From contig JBDRGX010000144.1 of NCBI GenBank assembly GCA_043817485.1, forward strand, positions 1 to 5,990: a DNA stretch of 5,990 nucleotides. The letters are read 5' to 3'. This DNA comes from JBDRGX01 sp043817485 [NCBI: bacterium] (GTDB lineage Bacteria; JBDRGX01). The notes under the pieces are model-generated. The model worked only from the letters and a program-made list of their open reading frames with translations. It was not told where the DNA came from and ran no database searches. Every line of letters starts with the position of its first letter. Within the stretch, counting starts at the first letter, position 1. This document shows, one piece after another, positions 1,521 to 5,990 of the stretch. The position numbers and the translations under genes were made by a program.

Positions 1521-2548
1521 ATGGAAAAAATAGATAAAAATAATTTATTAAAAAAATTGGAAATATTTCTCAAATAGCTAATATAGAAGATTATAAAATA
1601 AATAGTGGGCCAGGAAAAGATGTAAGAGTTCTTTCTGTAAAAACAGGTAGTGGTTTTCAATTTTCAGTAATTCCAGATAGAGGTATGGATATTTATCAGG
1701 CTGAATATCAAGGCAATTCATTAGAATGGCGTTCTAATACTGGTCTTATTTCTCCGTATTTTTATGAAAAAGATGGAATAGGTTGGTTGCGTAATTTTTT
1801 TGGGGGCTTATTAACTACTTGTGGATTAACTTATGCTGGAGCTTCTGATGAAAAAAATGGTCTTCATGGAAGAATAAATAATATTCCAGCAGATGAAGTT
1901 AATATTTTAAAATATTGGCAAAATAATGAATATATTTTTGAAATTACGGGTGTAGTAAAAGAAGTATCTGTTTTTGGGGATGCTTTGAAATTAACAAGAA
2001 AAATACAAACTAAATTAGGTGAAGATAAATTATTTATACAAGATAAAGTAGAAAATATTGGCTTTAAAAAATCGCCTTTAATGATTATTTATCATATCAA
2101 TATTGGCTATCCTTTACTTGATTCAAACGCAAAACTTATTACTAATGAAAATTCTATTGTTTCAAGAGATGAAGAAGCAGAAAAAGGAAAAGGTCAAGAA
2201 AAAATATTTAGTGAACCATTGGAAAATTTTAAAGAGCAAGTATTTTATTTTGATCTTAAACAAGATTCTTTTGGATATTCAAAAGTAGCTTTAGTAAATG
2301 AAAAAATTCCATTAGGTGTTTATGTGAAATATAAAAAAGATACTTTGCCTCGATTTACAGAATGGAAAATGATGGGATGTGGAGAATATGTTGTTGGTTT
2401 AGAACCATCTAATTGTTATCCTGAAGGAAGAAAAAAAGAAAAAGAGAGAGGTACTTTAATAGAAATTAATCCTCAAGAAATAATTACATTTGAATTAGAA
2501 ATAGGTATTTTAGATACAAAAGAAAAATGTTGTTCACAAATTTTTTAA
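1521..2548 (+). CDS. DUF4432 aldose-1-epimerase-family protein, split by an apparent frameshift near its N-terminus
   Basis: The body (frame 2, through the TAA at 2546-2548) has DUF4432 / galactose-mutarotase-like features. These are PDRGMDI, GLHGR with a candidate catalytic His, YHINIGYPLLD with a second His, TEWKMMG, and VGLEPSNCYPEGR with a candidate catalytic Glu. Homology clearly continues upstream of the first in-frame ATG (1685): codons 1556-1684 encode IGNISQIANIEDYK through SVIPDRG, which is family sequence. Frame 2 has a stop at 1541-1543 and no ATG, GTG or TTG between it and 1685. An ATG at 1521, 4 nt after the prepilin stop, encodes MEKIDKNNLLKK in frame 3 and then meets TAG at 1575-1577. 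Joining the frames at the A7 run (1550-1556) gives 342 residues, close to the family's usual length. It may be expressed by -1 slippage, be a recent null mutation, or reflect a homopolymer sequencing error. Members are thought to bind or epimerise sugars; the substrate is unknown. Confidence 0.8.
1550..1556 (+). other. A7 run forming a minus-one slippery heptamer at the frame junction
   Basis: In the frame of the ATG at 1521 the codons are TTA AAA AAA TTG, so the seven A read as A_AAA_AAA, the canonical X_XXY_YYZ arrangement for simultaneous tRNA slippage. After a -1 shift reading continues ATT GGA AAT ATT (IGNI), which is in frame with the DUF4432 body. The zero frame ends at TAG 1575-1577. 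I saw no strong downstream hairpin or upstream Shine-Dalgarno-like stimulator. RNA polymerase slippage on the A run (adding one A) would restore the same frame. Confidence 0.6.
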
Positions 2549-2571: not shown

Positions 2572-2594
2572 AAATAAATTTATAAAATTTATTT
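2572..2594. terminator. AT-only inverted repeat between convergent genes, possible weak bidirectional terminator
   Basis: AAATAAATTT (2572-2581) and its exact reverse complement AAATTTATTT (2585-2594) flank a 3-nt loop. This makes a perfect 10-bp stem containing only A-T pairs. It sits between the ends of the DUF4432 gene and lpxB and covers the lpxB stop codon (2589-2591). T-rich sequence lies on the + strand after it, and A-rich sequence before it reads as T-rich on neither side consistently. Without G-C pairs the stem is weak, and chance palindromes are common at this base composition. Confidence 0.35.
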
Positions 2595-3734
2595 TATCAT
2601 TTCAAAAATTATTTTCACTAATCGCTCTAATGCTCCATTAGAACCCAAATTATTTATTACCTTTTCTAAATTTATTTTCATATTAGAAGTATAATTAATA
2701 TCATTTAATATTTTTAAAGATAATTCAGTAATATTTTTTGAATTGACTTTTTTTTGTAATAATTCTGGGACAATTTCTTTTTCTGCTAAAATATTAGGAA
2801 GACTGACAAAAGGGTATTTTACTAATAATTTTGCAATATAATAGGTTAAAGCAGAAATTTTGTAAATAACAATTTGAGGAGTTTTAAAATAAGATGCTTC
2901 AAGAGTAGTTGTTCCAGAAGAAGTAATAATTAAAGAAGAATTGTTCATTACATCATAAGAATAGCCAGAAATTATTTTTATAAAATTAGCATTATTATTT
3001 TTAATTTTTTCAATAATTTCTTTTTCAAAAACAGAAGAAGAAACAGAAAGAACAAATTGAGATTTTATTTTGTTTTTAATTTTAATAGCACTTTCGATAA
3101 TTACTGGTAAAAGATTTTTTATTTCTTGAAATCTACTGCCAGGGAATAAGCCAATTATCGGAATATTAGGATCTAAATCGAATTTTTTCAAAAAGTTTTC
3201 TTTATCTAATTTAAGATTAGTAGTATCAAGTAAAGGATGACCAATAAAACTTACATTAGCACCTACTTTTTTATATATTTCAAATTCTTTTTTATAAACA
3301 GCAGCAAATTGAGTAATTAGTTTAGCAATTTTAATACCATTCCATTCACCCCAAATCCAAATTTGTGGAGCAAAATAATAAAGAATAGGAATATTTTTCT
3401 TTTTTGCTAATTTTGCTATATTTAAATTAAATCCTTGATTATCAACTAAAATTAAAAGATTTGGTTTTTCACGATCTAAAATTTCATTTACTTTTTTCAA
3501 AGCTTTTTGATATTTAGAAAGGTATTGTAAAGATTCTAAAATTCCTACAGTATTAAATGATGTTAAATCAAGAAGAACATTCATTCCTGCATTTTTGCAT
3601 TTTTCACCACCTAATCCAAAAATATTAATAGAAGAATTTTTTTCAAATAAAGCTTTTACTAAATGTGAAGCTTGAAGATCTCCAGAAATTTCTCCAGCAC
3701 AAAGCATTATTTTTATTTGTTTAAACATTTTCAT
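2589..3734 (-). CDS. lpxB: Lipid-A-disaccharide synthase LpxB
   Basis: 381 residues, the usual LpxB length. LpxB is a peripheral inner-membrane GT-B glycosyltransferase (GT19). It joins UDP-2,3-diacylglucosamine and lipid X into the lipid A disaccharide, releasing UDP. Motifs in order: GEISGD at 14-19 (canonical GEASGD), GLGG at 40-43, FNTVGILESL at 60-69, LVDNQGFNLNIAK at 96-108 with Asp98 aligned to the essential Asp of E. coli LpxB, YYFAPQIWIWGEW at 119-131, FIGHPLLD at 163-170, GLFPGSRFQEI at 195-205, SSGTTTLEA at 272-280 in the nucleotide-sugar site, and SLPNILA...VPELLQ at 311-327. The ATG directly follows the TAA of the TrpG/PabA gene with no gap (TAAATG), so translation is probably coupled. 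Met3 or Met10 are possible alternative starts; no clear Shine-Dalgarno separates them. An eight-base poly-A run encodes QKK near residues 327-329 and leaves this gene in frame. Confidence 0.95.
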   Translation of the reverse strand: MKMFKQIKIMLCAGEISGDLQASHLVKALFEKNSSINIFGLGGEKCKNAGMNVLLDLTSFNTVGILESLQYLSKYQKALKKVNEILDREKPNLLILVDNQGFNLNIAKLAKKKNIPILYYFAPQIWIWGEWNGIKIAKLITQFAAVYKKEFEIYKKVGANVSFIGHPLLDTTNLKLDKENFLKKFDLDPNIPIIGLFPGSRFQEIKNLLPVIIESAIKIKNKIKSQFVLSVSSSVFEKEIIEKIKNNNANFIKIISGYSYDVMNNSSLIITSSGTTTLEASYFKTPQIVIYKISALTYYIAKLLVKYPFVSLPNILAEKEIVPELLQKKVNSKNITELSLKILNDINYTSNMKINLEKVINNLGSNGALERLVKIIFEMIK

Positions 3735-4301
3735 TTACATCATCACAAAATTTTTCAATAATTTCTTGCCTTCTTTAGTGAGAATTGATTCTGGATGAAA
3801 TTGAACTCCTTCTATTGGATATTTTTTATGCCTGACTCCCATAATTTCATTTTGTTTTGTTTGGGCAGTAATTTCTAAACAATCTGGAATAGTTTCTTTT
3901 TCAATAATTAAGGAATGATATCTTGTAGCTTCAAAAGGATTTTCTAAATTTTTAAAAATTGTTTTACCATCATGATAAATTAAAGATGTTTTTCCATGCA
4001 TTAAATTTTTTGCTCTAATAACATTTCCTCCAAATACATCTCCTATACATTGATGGCCTAAACATACACCTAAAATAGGAATTATTTCAGCAAAATTTTT
4101 AATTACATCATTAGAAATACCAGCTTCTTTTGGAGTACAAGGACCAGGAGAAATAACAATTTTGTTGGGTTTTAATTTTTTTATTTCAGCAATAGTAATT
4201 TTATCATTTCTTTTAACAATTATATTTATGCCCATTTCCCCTAAATACTGAACTAAATTAAAAGTAAAAGAATCATAATTATCAATCATTAAGATTTTCA
4301 T
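3735..4301 (-). CDS. trpG/pabA: Glutamine amidotransferase, anthranilate / aminodeoxychorismate synthase component II
   Basis: 188 residues from the chosen start, typical of the family. The class I glutamine amidotransferase hydrolyses glutamine and channels ammonia to a chorismate-using partner (TrpE for tryptophan or PabB for folate). Visible motifs are the N-terminal [24 protein letters not shown] at 51-54 (oxyanion region), GVCLGHQ with catalytic Cys80, MHGKTS at 101-106, ATRYHSL at 125-131, and GVQFHPES with His169 and Glu171 completing the triad. An upstream ATG at 4316 would add MEVFL, but that codon overlaps the Shine-Dalgarno GGAGG (4314-4310), which lies 8 nt before the ATG at 4301, so 4301 is preferred. 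TrpG and PabA cannot be told apart here, and no TrpE or PabB partner lies in the window; many bacteria share one subunit between both pathways. The stop abuts the lpxB start. Confidence 0.93.
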
Positions 4302-4309
4302 TAAGAAAA

Positions 4310-4314
4310 CCTCC
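4310..4314 (-). promoter_or_regulatory. Shine-Dalgarno deciding the TrpG/PabA start
   Basis: On the - strand GGAGG runs from 4314 to 4310, followed by an 8-nt spacer and the ATG at 4301-4299. It makes the upstream in-frame ATG at 4316 an unlikely start. Confidence 0.8.
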
Positions 4315-4344
4315 ATTTTTATTGGAAATTATTTTTAGTTTTTT

Positions 4345-4364: not shown

Positions 4365-5051
4365 TTATTTTTTCTTCATTATAAACAAATACTTAAATCC
4401 TCTCAAATAAAAATTAAACTGTCTCGCTCTATTATGCCATATATCTGTATTTGATGTTTGGTTGTGTCTGGTTACGCAAATAATGTCAATTGTTTCAAAA
4501 TATTTTTCTAATCGCTGATAGAGCAAAAACCCAGTTGGTGTAAATTTCTTTTTTATCCATTGGTCACCAATTAGCCACGCCATCGCTTTGTTTGGTTTTA
4601 AGATTCTATGAATTTCTTTAGCAACTTTTTCTAATTCCTCAAAAAATTCTTGTTTTTCGCAAGATATTTTTCCAATACATTTACTTTCATCTGAATAATT
4701 GATATTATCTGAATATGGCGAGTCAATGAAAACAAAATCAACACTATTATTATCAAGAGGAATTTGTCTTGCATCATTCCTTATTACATCTGGTCGCACA
4801 ATATTTATATCATAACCAATAACTTTTCGTTTTAGCTCTGTTGCAACATCAATTGTAGTTCCACTGCCACACATAGGATCAACAACTAAATCATTTTCTT
4901 TTGTATAGCGTTGTAATAAATTCCAAATAACAAAAGCAGGGGTTACTCCATTATATTTATTGTTACCATGTGGTTTTTCTCCATAATTTTGAGTAGGAAA
5001 ATCCCATAGCGTAGTAGATTCAAGAATTAATTCTTTTTTATTTTTTTCCAT
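4365..5051 (-). CDS. DNA methyltransferase M2 of a restriction-modification operon (amino-methyltransferase type)
   Basis: 228 residues. This looks like an AdoMet-dependent DNA amino-methyltransferase (N6-adenine or N4-cytosine). The N-terminal region HGNNKYNGVTPAFVIWNLL leads into motif I, VVDPMCGSGTT at 56-66 (AdoMet binding). An acidic loop follows, GYDI at 79-82, then NDAR at 92-95 and the catalytic motif IV FIDSPYSDN at 108-116. Motif IV is DSPY rather than the usual (D/N/S)PP(Y/F/W). A helix with ELEKVAKEIHRILKP (139-153) is typical of the methylase fold. The C-terminal WHNRARQFNFYLRGFKYLFIM is distinctive but I cannot assign it a role. Order I then IV, small size and absence of a clear target-recognition domain make it compact. 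Its ATG lies 14 nt inside the end of the restriction gene, so the two are co-translated. Protecting host DNA from the neighbouring nuclease is the likely role. Confidence 0.85.
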   Translation of the reverse strand: MEKNKKELILESTTLWDFPTQNYGEKPHGNNKYNGVTPAFVIWNLLQRYTKENDLVVDPMCGSGTTIDVATELKRKVIGYDINIVRPDVIRNDARQIPLDNNSVDFVFIDSPYSDNINYSDESKCIGKISCEKQEFFEELEKVAKEIHRILKPNKAMAWLIGDQWIKKKFTPTGFLLYQRLEKYFETIDIICVTRHNQTSNTDIWHNRARQFNFYLRGFKYLFIMKKK

Positions 5052-5715
5052 TTATCAACTTCTTTAAGTCGTCAATGAATTTGTCAAACATTTTAACCTT
5101 GCTGCTTTCATCAATATTCGTTTCACTTAACACATAGCTACCATCTAAATCTACTTCAATTATTGCTCTACCTTTCTTTGCAGGTTTTCTTACTGTTAAT
5201 GTACCATCTTCATCAGATGTTACAAAATAAACTTTTATATGTTTTGTAACTTCGTTAGAAGCAAGTTTTATTTTCCAGTAACCAGTTTGGGCAATTCTTT
5301 CTCGTAAAGTTACCTTACTTGAAAGTACTGCGATAACCTTACTTGTAAATGGGTCATAGATGATAATATCTACATCTGGAAGATGTGAACCAAATTCCCC
5401 ATAATCAATAAGTAAATTTCTTTTTACTAAACTCATCTCTTTTGGTAGATTTTCCCCTTTAGTTCTTTCAAGAGAATTGCCATTTACTACTTCAAGTCCT
5501 AAACTTCTAACTTCATCAGTAATTATATATTCAATAAGTTTTTCAAGATTTTTCCCCTTAAATGCTCTCCATGATTGCTCGTGATCAGTTCCATTAAAAT
5601 CTTTTTCATGTTGTGTTTTTGCTTCTGCCAAAAGGTTTGAAATATAACGATATGCTTCATTGCCATGCATTTGTTTTTTTCTGTCATACAATTTGATGAG
5701 ATCTTTTATATTCAT
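5038..5715 (-). CDS. Type II restriction endonuclease, BsaWI-like (PD-(D/E)XK fold)
   Basis: 225 residues. The sequence resembles what I recall of the BsaWI restriction enzyme family, members of the CCGG group of PD-(D/E)XK nucleases; BsaWI itself cuts WCCGGW. The assignment is from memory of the pattern VKRNLLIDYGEFGSHLPDVDIIIYDP...VIAVLSSKVTLRERIAQTGYWKIKL, not from a search. The candidate active site is PD at 113-114 (or D116), then SSK at 132-134 with Lys134 as the catalytic lysine, and nearby Glu139. SxK in place of (D/E)xK is also seen in CCGG-family enzymes. A second acidic candidate is Glu58 in the helix FKGKNLEKLIEY. The N-terminal 50 residues are helical and charged. The start overlaps the stop of the upstream methyltransferase as ATGA (4 nt), and the end overlaps the next methyltransferase by 14 nt. 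Cleavage specificity cannot be read from the sequence. Confidence 0.8.
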   Translation of the reverse strand: MNIKDLIKLYDRKKQMHGNEAYRYISNLLAEAKTQHEKDFNGTDHEQSWRAFKGKNLEKLIEYIITDEVRSLGLEVVNGNSLERTKGENLPKEMSLVKRNLLIDYGEFGSHLPDVDIIIYDPFTSKVIAVLSSKVTLRERIAQTGYWKIKLASNEVTKHIKVYFVTSDEDGTLTVRKPAKKGRAIIEVDLDGSYVLSETNIDESSKVKMFDKFIDDLKKLINGKK

Positions 5716-5990
5716 ATTTTTTCCATTACTAAAATATATTCGGTTGGATATGCTAATTTTAGATTTTTGTCATTTACTTTTACAAATTGTCCTGTTTTCG
5801 TATCTCGTGTTGATGGTAGCATTTTAGATGGAATTTCTCTATGAATAATATTATAAGTTTTGAAACCAATGTTTTCGAATTGTTCTTGAAAAACTTCAGC
5901 ATTCATAATTTCTACACCTTGAAATTGAGTGTTTCCAATAACAATACAAGCTTTACCACCTTTTTTCAAAGTTCTTTTCATTTCAATAAA
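5712..5990 (-). CDS. DNA methyltransferase M1, C-terminal fragment (5' end outside window)
   Basis: The - strand frame is open from the right edge to the TGA at 5714-5712, giving 92 residues, so the gene begins beyond the window. The visible start FIEMKRTLKKGGKACIVIGNT matches the helix-plus-strand after the catalytic motif in Rossmann DNA methyltransferases (E-x-x-R-x-L-K-x-G-G-K). The Met at 5981 lies inside this helix and is not a start. The rest (GVEIMNAEVFQEQFENIGFK, a Lys/Thr-rich loop REIPSKMLPSTRDTKTGQF, then AYPTEYILVMEK) looks like the end of a methylase catalytic domain. The AdoMet and catalytic motifs are outside the window, so adenine versus cytosine specificity cannot be judged. 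The TGA overlaps the restriction gene ATG (ATGA), placing it first in the M1-R-M2 operon as seen. Confidence 0.75.
   Translation of the reverse strand, partial: FIEMKRTLKKGGKACIVIGNTQFQGVEIMNAEVFQEQFENIGFKTYNIIHREIPSKMLPSTRDTKTGQFVKVNDKNLKLAYPTEYILVMEKI

Follow-up and report, generated by a model that had tools for sequence, protein, structure and literature searches.

The -1 frameshifting or transcriptional slippage of dnaX takes place at an A-rich slippery site lying in phase with the gene; the frameshift site is accompanied by stimulators, and two useful products are formed. The gene described here, a member of the family DUF4432, also carries an A-rich slippery site in phase, but neither stimulators nor a second useful product was seen. 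The dnaX site has been reported as aligned across nine genera (PMC3711429). The slippage-rescued genes of Buchnera and Blochmannia resemble the DUF4432 gene in their AT-rich sequence, isolated poly(A) frame break and preserved body, whereas the endosymbiont rescues reported use long runs (PMC5009743), and the DUF4432 gene has an A7. The closest counterpart is the 5′ poly(A) tract of Listeria monocytogenes inlA (A7 in frame, A6 out of frame), in which the one-base change is reported to break the frame and leave a product of 8 amino acids (PMC2831843). A one-base contraction in an otherwise intact gene, with a very short product, appears to be common to both. The polymorphism and reversion of the inlA tract have, however, been measured, whereas the DUF4432 tract is known from one sequence and a sequence error is possible.

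Organization of the split gene

The window, i.e. the whole stretch of 5,990 nucleotides analysed here, has a G+C content of 26%, and the features discussed are collected in Table 1. Translation from ATG 1521 in frame 3 gives MEKIDKNNLLKKLEIFLK, a peptide of 18 residues ending at the stop 1575-1577; the reading of MEKIDKNNLLKK leads into the A run with the phase A_AAA_AAA. Exactly seven As make up this run (1550-1556), which covers codons 10-12 counted from ATG 1521 and is situated 3% of the way into the gene. In frame 2, no stop is met between 1544 and 2546-2548, and no ATG, GTG or TTG occurs upstream of ATG 1685. When the two frames are joined within the A7 run, a protein of 342 residues is obtained. 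The reading-frame check and the homology described below thus agree with the first-pass annotation, which had described a gene split between an N-terminus in frame 3 and a body in frame 2 that lacks a usable start.

Table 1. Coordinates of the split DUF4432 gene and of the putative restriction-modification genes in the window
Feature	Coordinates	Strand	Description and basis
Zero-frame ORF (frame 3)	1521..1577	+	18 aa; codons 1-12 encode the ancestral DUF4432 N-terminus, remainder out of frame; fit to 30 homologues
A7 homopolymer, A_AAA_AAA in frame 3, frame-break site	1550..1556	+	Sequence, N-terminal fit
DUF4432 gene body (frame 2)	1556..2548	+	330 codons + stop, intact; PF14486, 3ty1_A, model
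287-aa ORF begun at the body's first in-frame ATG	1685..2548	+	Three N-terminal strands of the predicted fold missing
DNA-methylase ORF	4365-5051	-	Pfam, 1.2e-25
BsaWI-type restriction endonuclease ORF	5038-5715	-	Pfam RE_BsaWI, 1.5e-31
Second methylase-like ORF, runs off the window	5712-5990	-	Weak match, below cut-off

No Shine-Dalgarno-like motif was found in the 25 nt upstream of ATG 1521 (1496-1521, + strand), unlike the HAMP-like and trpG-like ORFs of the window, which are preceded by AGGAGG/GGAGG. The ATG is located 4 nt past the stop of a pilin-like ORF. Judging from the sequence, coupling of the DUF4432 start to the upstream ORF, or weak expression, is possible.

Identity and integrity of the DUF4432 body

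With the Pfam profile DUF4432 (PF14486), the body gives a match above the gathering score (3e-102; 341.9 bits vs a cut-off of 32.5) that spans the whole domain, from position 3 to the last, 304. One relative of solved structure was retrieved by sequence, 3ty1 (9.3e-26). For the AlphaFold2 model of the frame-2 protein (P0001; pLDDT 91.6, pTM 0.91), which displays a galactose-mutarotase-like fold, the best Foldseek match (TM 0.90 on the query) is 3ty1_A, a putative aldose 1-epimerase. Sequence and model together identify the gene as an ordinary DUF4432 member, a putative aldose 1-epimerase with a predicted galactose-mutarotase fold. The literature retrieved on DUF4432 itself gave nothing informative.

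In 65 columns a residue is shared by 27 or more of the 30 homologues (at least 90%), and the window agrees with the family in 61 of these, the four exceptions being residues 23, 46, 109 and 244 of the joined protein. The body has no internal stop and displays no further decay of the pseudogene kind; the frame break itself, if the sequence is correct, truncates the product to 18 residues, as in a pseudogene. The full Pfam domain, the conserved columns and the lack of internal stops bear out the earlier description of the remaining 990 bases as intact.

In the model, strands 13-18, 28-33 and 38-43 of the frame-2 protein precede Met 48, which corresponds to ATG 1685. The 287-residue ORF starting there was considered as the product and rejected; it would lose the first three strands of the fold, which makes ATG 1685 an unconvincing alternative start and a functional product unlikely.

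Relatives of the DUF4432 locus

A contig scan of genomes gave three distant loci, with 43-47% identity to the DUF4432 protein. Protein searches in the three genome groups reached from these loci (240, 40 and 201 genomes) gave matches in 60, 20 and 35 genomes, respectively, and none of the matches listed in those groups exceeds 48% identity. The protein scan of viral contigs and a scan for exact 28-base matches recovered no relative. In the plasmid collection, 288 records have a match, each with less than 60% identity. Stops are flagged in 5 of the 119 listed match rows; in the three of these that were inspected, they lie away from the N-terminal junction, at match residue 330 of 338 in L008, 327 of 333 in L009, and 302 and 329 of 334 in L010.

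Homology of the N-terminus across the junction

For the analysis of the N-terminus, 30 of 35 homologue loci were used, leaving out L004, L026 and L032, which are second copies of L001, L003 and L002, and the LpxB loci L034 and L035. These 30 are the best-scoring matches and were chosen as ORFs matching the frame-2 protein, so the set leans to uninterrupted genes; a single open frame runs through the place of the junction in all 30.

When the nine columns ahead of the conserved IG block were scored with the 30 homologous N-termini, IDKNNLLKK of frame 3 ranked first in the set of all 6,461 nonapeptides that are open in any of the six reading frames of the window, a set that includes IDKNNLLKK, and only 0.1% of 20,000 shuffles of this peptide scored as high. 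A leucine stands four residues ahead of the position of the window's I of the IG block in 23 of the 30 homologues, and isoleucine or valine in six more. The nearest upstream methionine lies 9-17 residues before this place in 28 of 30. Closest in form is L019, with MAKIDQKYLREHIG vs MEKIDKNNLLKKIG in the window, and homologues such as this one align without gaps from window residue 2 onwards. The LL of frame 3 aligns just upstream of the A run and the IGNISQ of frame 2 just downstream of it. Frame 3 is therefore homologous up to the run and frame 2 from the run onward, which locates the break inside the A7 run, where the first-pass annotation had placed the junction. By this sequence comparison, the frame-3 start is assigned to the DUF4432 gene.

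The same comparison bears on a rare AUU start, at 1547 or 1556 in frame 2, which would make the frame-3 ORF irrelevant. A product started in this way, in a frame that is open from 1544, would retain the conserved G-x-x-x-Q block; but a frame-3 peptide that gives the best fit to the family N-terminus of all the nonapeptides scored, and the lack of a clear Shine-Dalgarno-like motif before either AUU, argue against it. AUU start codons are, moreover, very rare, and initiation of this kind is considered very improbable.

The A7 run is found in none of the 30 homologues within the 33 bases around the junction, the longest run being an A6 in L009. As all of these homologues are distant (at most 48% identity) and their loci have 42-65% G+C as compared to 26% in the window, the absence of A7 says little on close relatives.

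Frequency of the heptamer and proposed programmed frameshifting

An in-phase heptamer of the X_XXY_YYZ type is present exactly at the junction (1550-1556). Its phase and position are as the first-pass annotation stated when it called the run a perfect -1 slippery heptamer, but the heptamer is not special in this sequence. The strongest -1 heptamer of E. coli is A_AAA_AAG and not A_AAA_AAA, and in the window A_AAA_AAA occurs at chance frequency. In the other coding sequence, comprising nine ORFs or ORF parts (1,950 codons, DUF4432 body included), eight zero-frame A_AAA_AAA were observed as compared to 8.37 ± 2.78 after codon shuffling, and 589 of 1,000 shuffles reached eight. Codon usage alone thus brings zero-frame A_AAA_AAA to about one per ORF (8 in 9 ORFs). 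The same coding sequence has 12 sense runs of A7 or longer when counted by ORF; since the run 5041-5047 is counted in two overlapping ORFs, 11 are distinct, and the heptamer count of eight is unaffected. None of the nine ORFs or ORF parts contains an internal stop.

Programmed -1 ribosomal frameshifting at A_AAA_AAA, which the first-pass annotation had listed among its options, would produce the 342-residue protein from the heptamer as it stands, correctly phased and exactly at the junction. However, the four stretches folded 3′ of the heptamer gave z-scores of +1.36, +2.09, +0.30 and +1.29 in a model that excludes pseudoknots; as all four are above zero, no stretch is more stable than its shuffles on average. 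Within 25 nt upstream of 1547 or 1556 there is no AGGAGG-like motif, a lone GGA at 1523-1525 being all that was found, and the zero-frame product is only an 18-residue peptide. The lack of A7 in the distant, G+C-richer homologues adds little in this respect. Programmed frameshifting is rejected because no stimulators were found and the heptamer frequency is that of the background, and it is regarded as the least credible of the readings.

A heptamer present at background frequency is better regarded, when it coincides with a frame break, as a landing place of indels or errors than as evidence of recoding. The locus matters mainly as a caution against reading a heptamer at a frame break as recoding; if close relatives were to keep the split, it would represent an unusually short rescue tract.

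Possible slippage on the A7 run

RNA polymerase, or incidentally the ribosome, may slip on the A7 run at a rate that keeps the gene functional, as described for endosymbiont genes with a frameshift. The 26% G+C of the window and the preserved gene body are consistent with such productive slippage. Precedents are also available: corrected transcripts amount to 12-50% in endosymbionts, but at long poly(A) runs (PMC5009743); in a laboratory drift experiment, frame-shifting indels in repeats of 3-8 bases are reported to have been bypassed, 8A being highly tolerated (PMC3812077); and productive slippage on eight As seems to take place in some IS elements (PMC1088944).

The A7 run is, however, short by these standards. 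Counterselection of A/T runs is described as evident at nine nucleotides in a large share of bacterial genomes, although the run length concerned varies and some AT-rich genomes show no avoidance (PMC1088944), and programmed realignment sites are often homopolymers of at least eight (PMC3711429). With seven adenines, the tract falls short of the about 8-9 or more associated with programmed transcriptional realignment (PMC1088944, PMC3711429). Insertion by E. coli RNA polymerase at an A7 is given as 0.39%, and for bypass the bacterial enzyme reportedly requires seven thymidines or more, and a still longer run in the case of adenines (PMC6260861). A transcript survey of E. coli and Buchnera (the latter with 26% G+C) reported no restored frame (PMC5574713). 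In addition, the eleven other sense runs of A7 or longer in the coding sequence of the window would slip equally. Slippage sufficient to sustain the function of the gene is therefore judged quite improbable.

Possible phase variation

A reversible on/off tract, with the gene caught in the off state, would overlap with the genuine-mutation half of the contraction explanation given below. The location of the tract at 3% of the gene length agrees with phase variation, as do the reported enrichment of 5-8-base poly(A) tracts at gene starts and the estimate that changes in the inlA A6/A7 tract exceed the average point mutation about 1,000-fold in frequency (PMC2831843). In the window, however, four of the 12 runs of A7/T7 or longer (11 distinct, in seven genes, that of DUF4432 included) fall within the first 10% of their genes, so the DUF4432 tract is not distinguished by its position. 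The usual phase-variable tracts are far longer than A7, and a mutarotase-like enzyme would be an atypical phase-variable gene. Phase variation is accordingly a distinctly unlikely explanation. A broader reading makes A7 a hypermutable or slippage-tolerated switch of this AT-rich lineage: production of the enzyme would be confined to cells whose tract has changed, or would amount to a trickle through polymerase slippage, and selection on this output would preserve the body. This reading is unlikely as well, if slightly less so.

Probable contraction of the poly(A) tract

The gene is laid out in two frames that meet in the A7 run, and apart from this break it shows no decay. The explanation preferred here, with a probability of roughly 0.85, is that the poly(A) tract at codons 10-12 has been shortened by one base, either by a recent mutation or by an error in the sequence, and that the frame of an otherwise ordinary DUF4432 gene has been broken thereby. 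The isolated break, the preserved body and the background occurrence of A runs in the window support such a contraction, although a slippage-rescued gene would have its other 990 bases equally well preserved. The split gene would thus be an ordinary case.

The contraction may have arisen by a recent, possibly reversible, replication-slippage mutation in the 5′ poly(A) tract, or may represent a homopolymer error in the sequence. The two causes appear about equally likely, given relatives no closer than 48% identity among the matches listed. A study covering 1,106 complete genomes expected sequencing errors, and not genuine indels, behind those BLASTp-validated frame breaks that are unclustered (PMC3711429). 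Of the options left unranked in the first-pass annotation, i.e. programmed frameshifting, slippage, phase variation, mutation and sequencing error, the two plainer ones, mutation and error, are favoured.

If the contraction is real, normal translation from ATG 1521 would end after 18 residues and the gene would be off. Incidental slippage of RNA polymerase or the ribosome on the A7 run would yield full-length enzyme at a low level at most, and the gene could be switched back by the same kind of slippage during replication.

Neighbouring genes in the window

Three ORFs lie upstream of the DUF4432 gene on its strand (1-1516, +): one with Kelch repeats, truncated by the start of the window; a small one that is HAMP-like, with a match below the cut-off; and a prepilin-like one with a weak ComGE match, also below the cut-off. 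Downstream (2589-4316, - strand), lpxB adjoins a trpG/pabA-type amidotransferase gene. Matches to LpxB occur in 182 of 197 genomes of a Lentisphaera-related class, none of those listed exceeding 36% identity; the source lineage therefore seems far from this class. In the plasmid collection, 40 records match LpxB, each with less than 60% identity.

The region 4365-5990 (- strand) is probably a type II restriction-modification cassette, in which, as judged from the Pfam matches, the endonuclease ORF lies between two methylase-like ORFs. Both the endonuclease ORF (5038-5715, base 36) and the methylase ORF (4365-5051, base 5) carry an A7 in the first 10% of their length, and the DUF4432 gene is thus not alone in having a 5′ poly(A) tract. 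In the methylase ORF, this A7 doubles as the run at the 3′ end of the endonuclease ORF.
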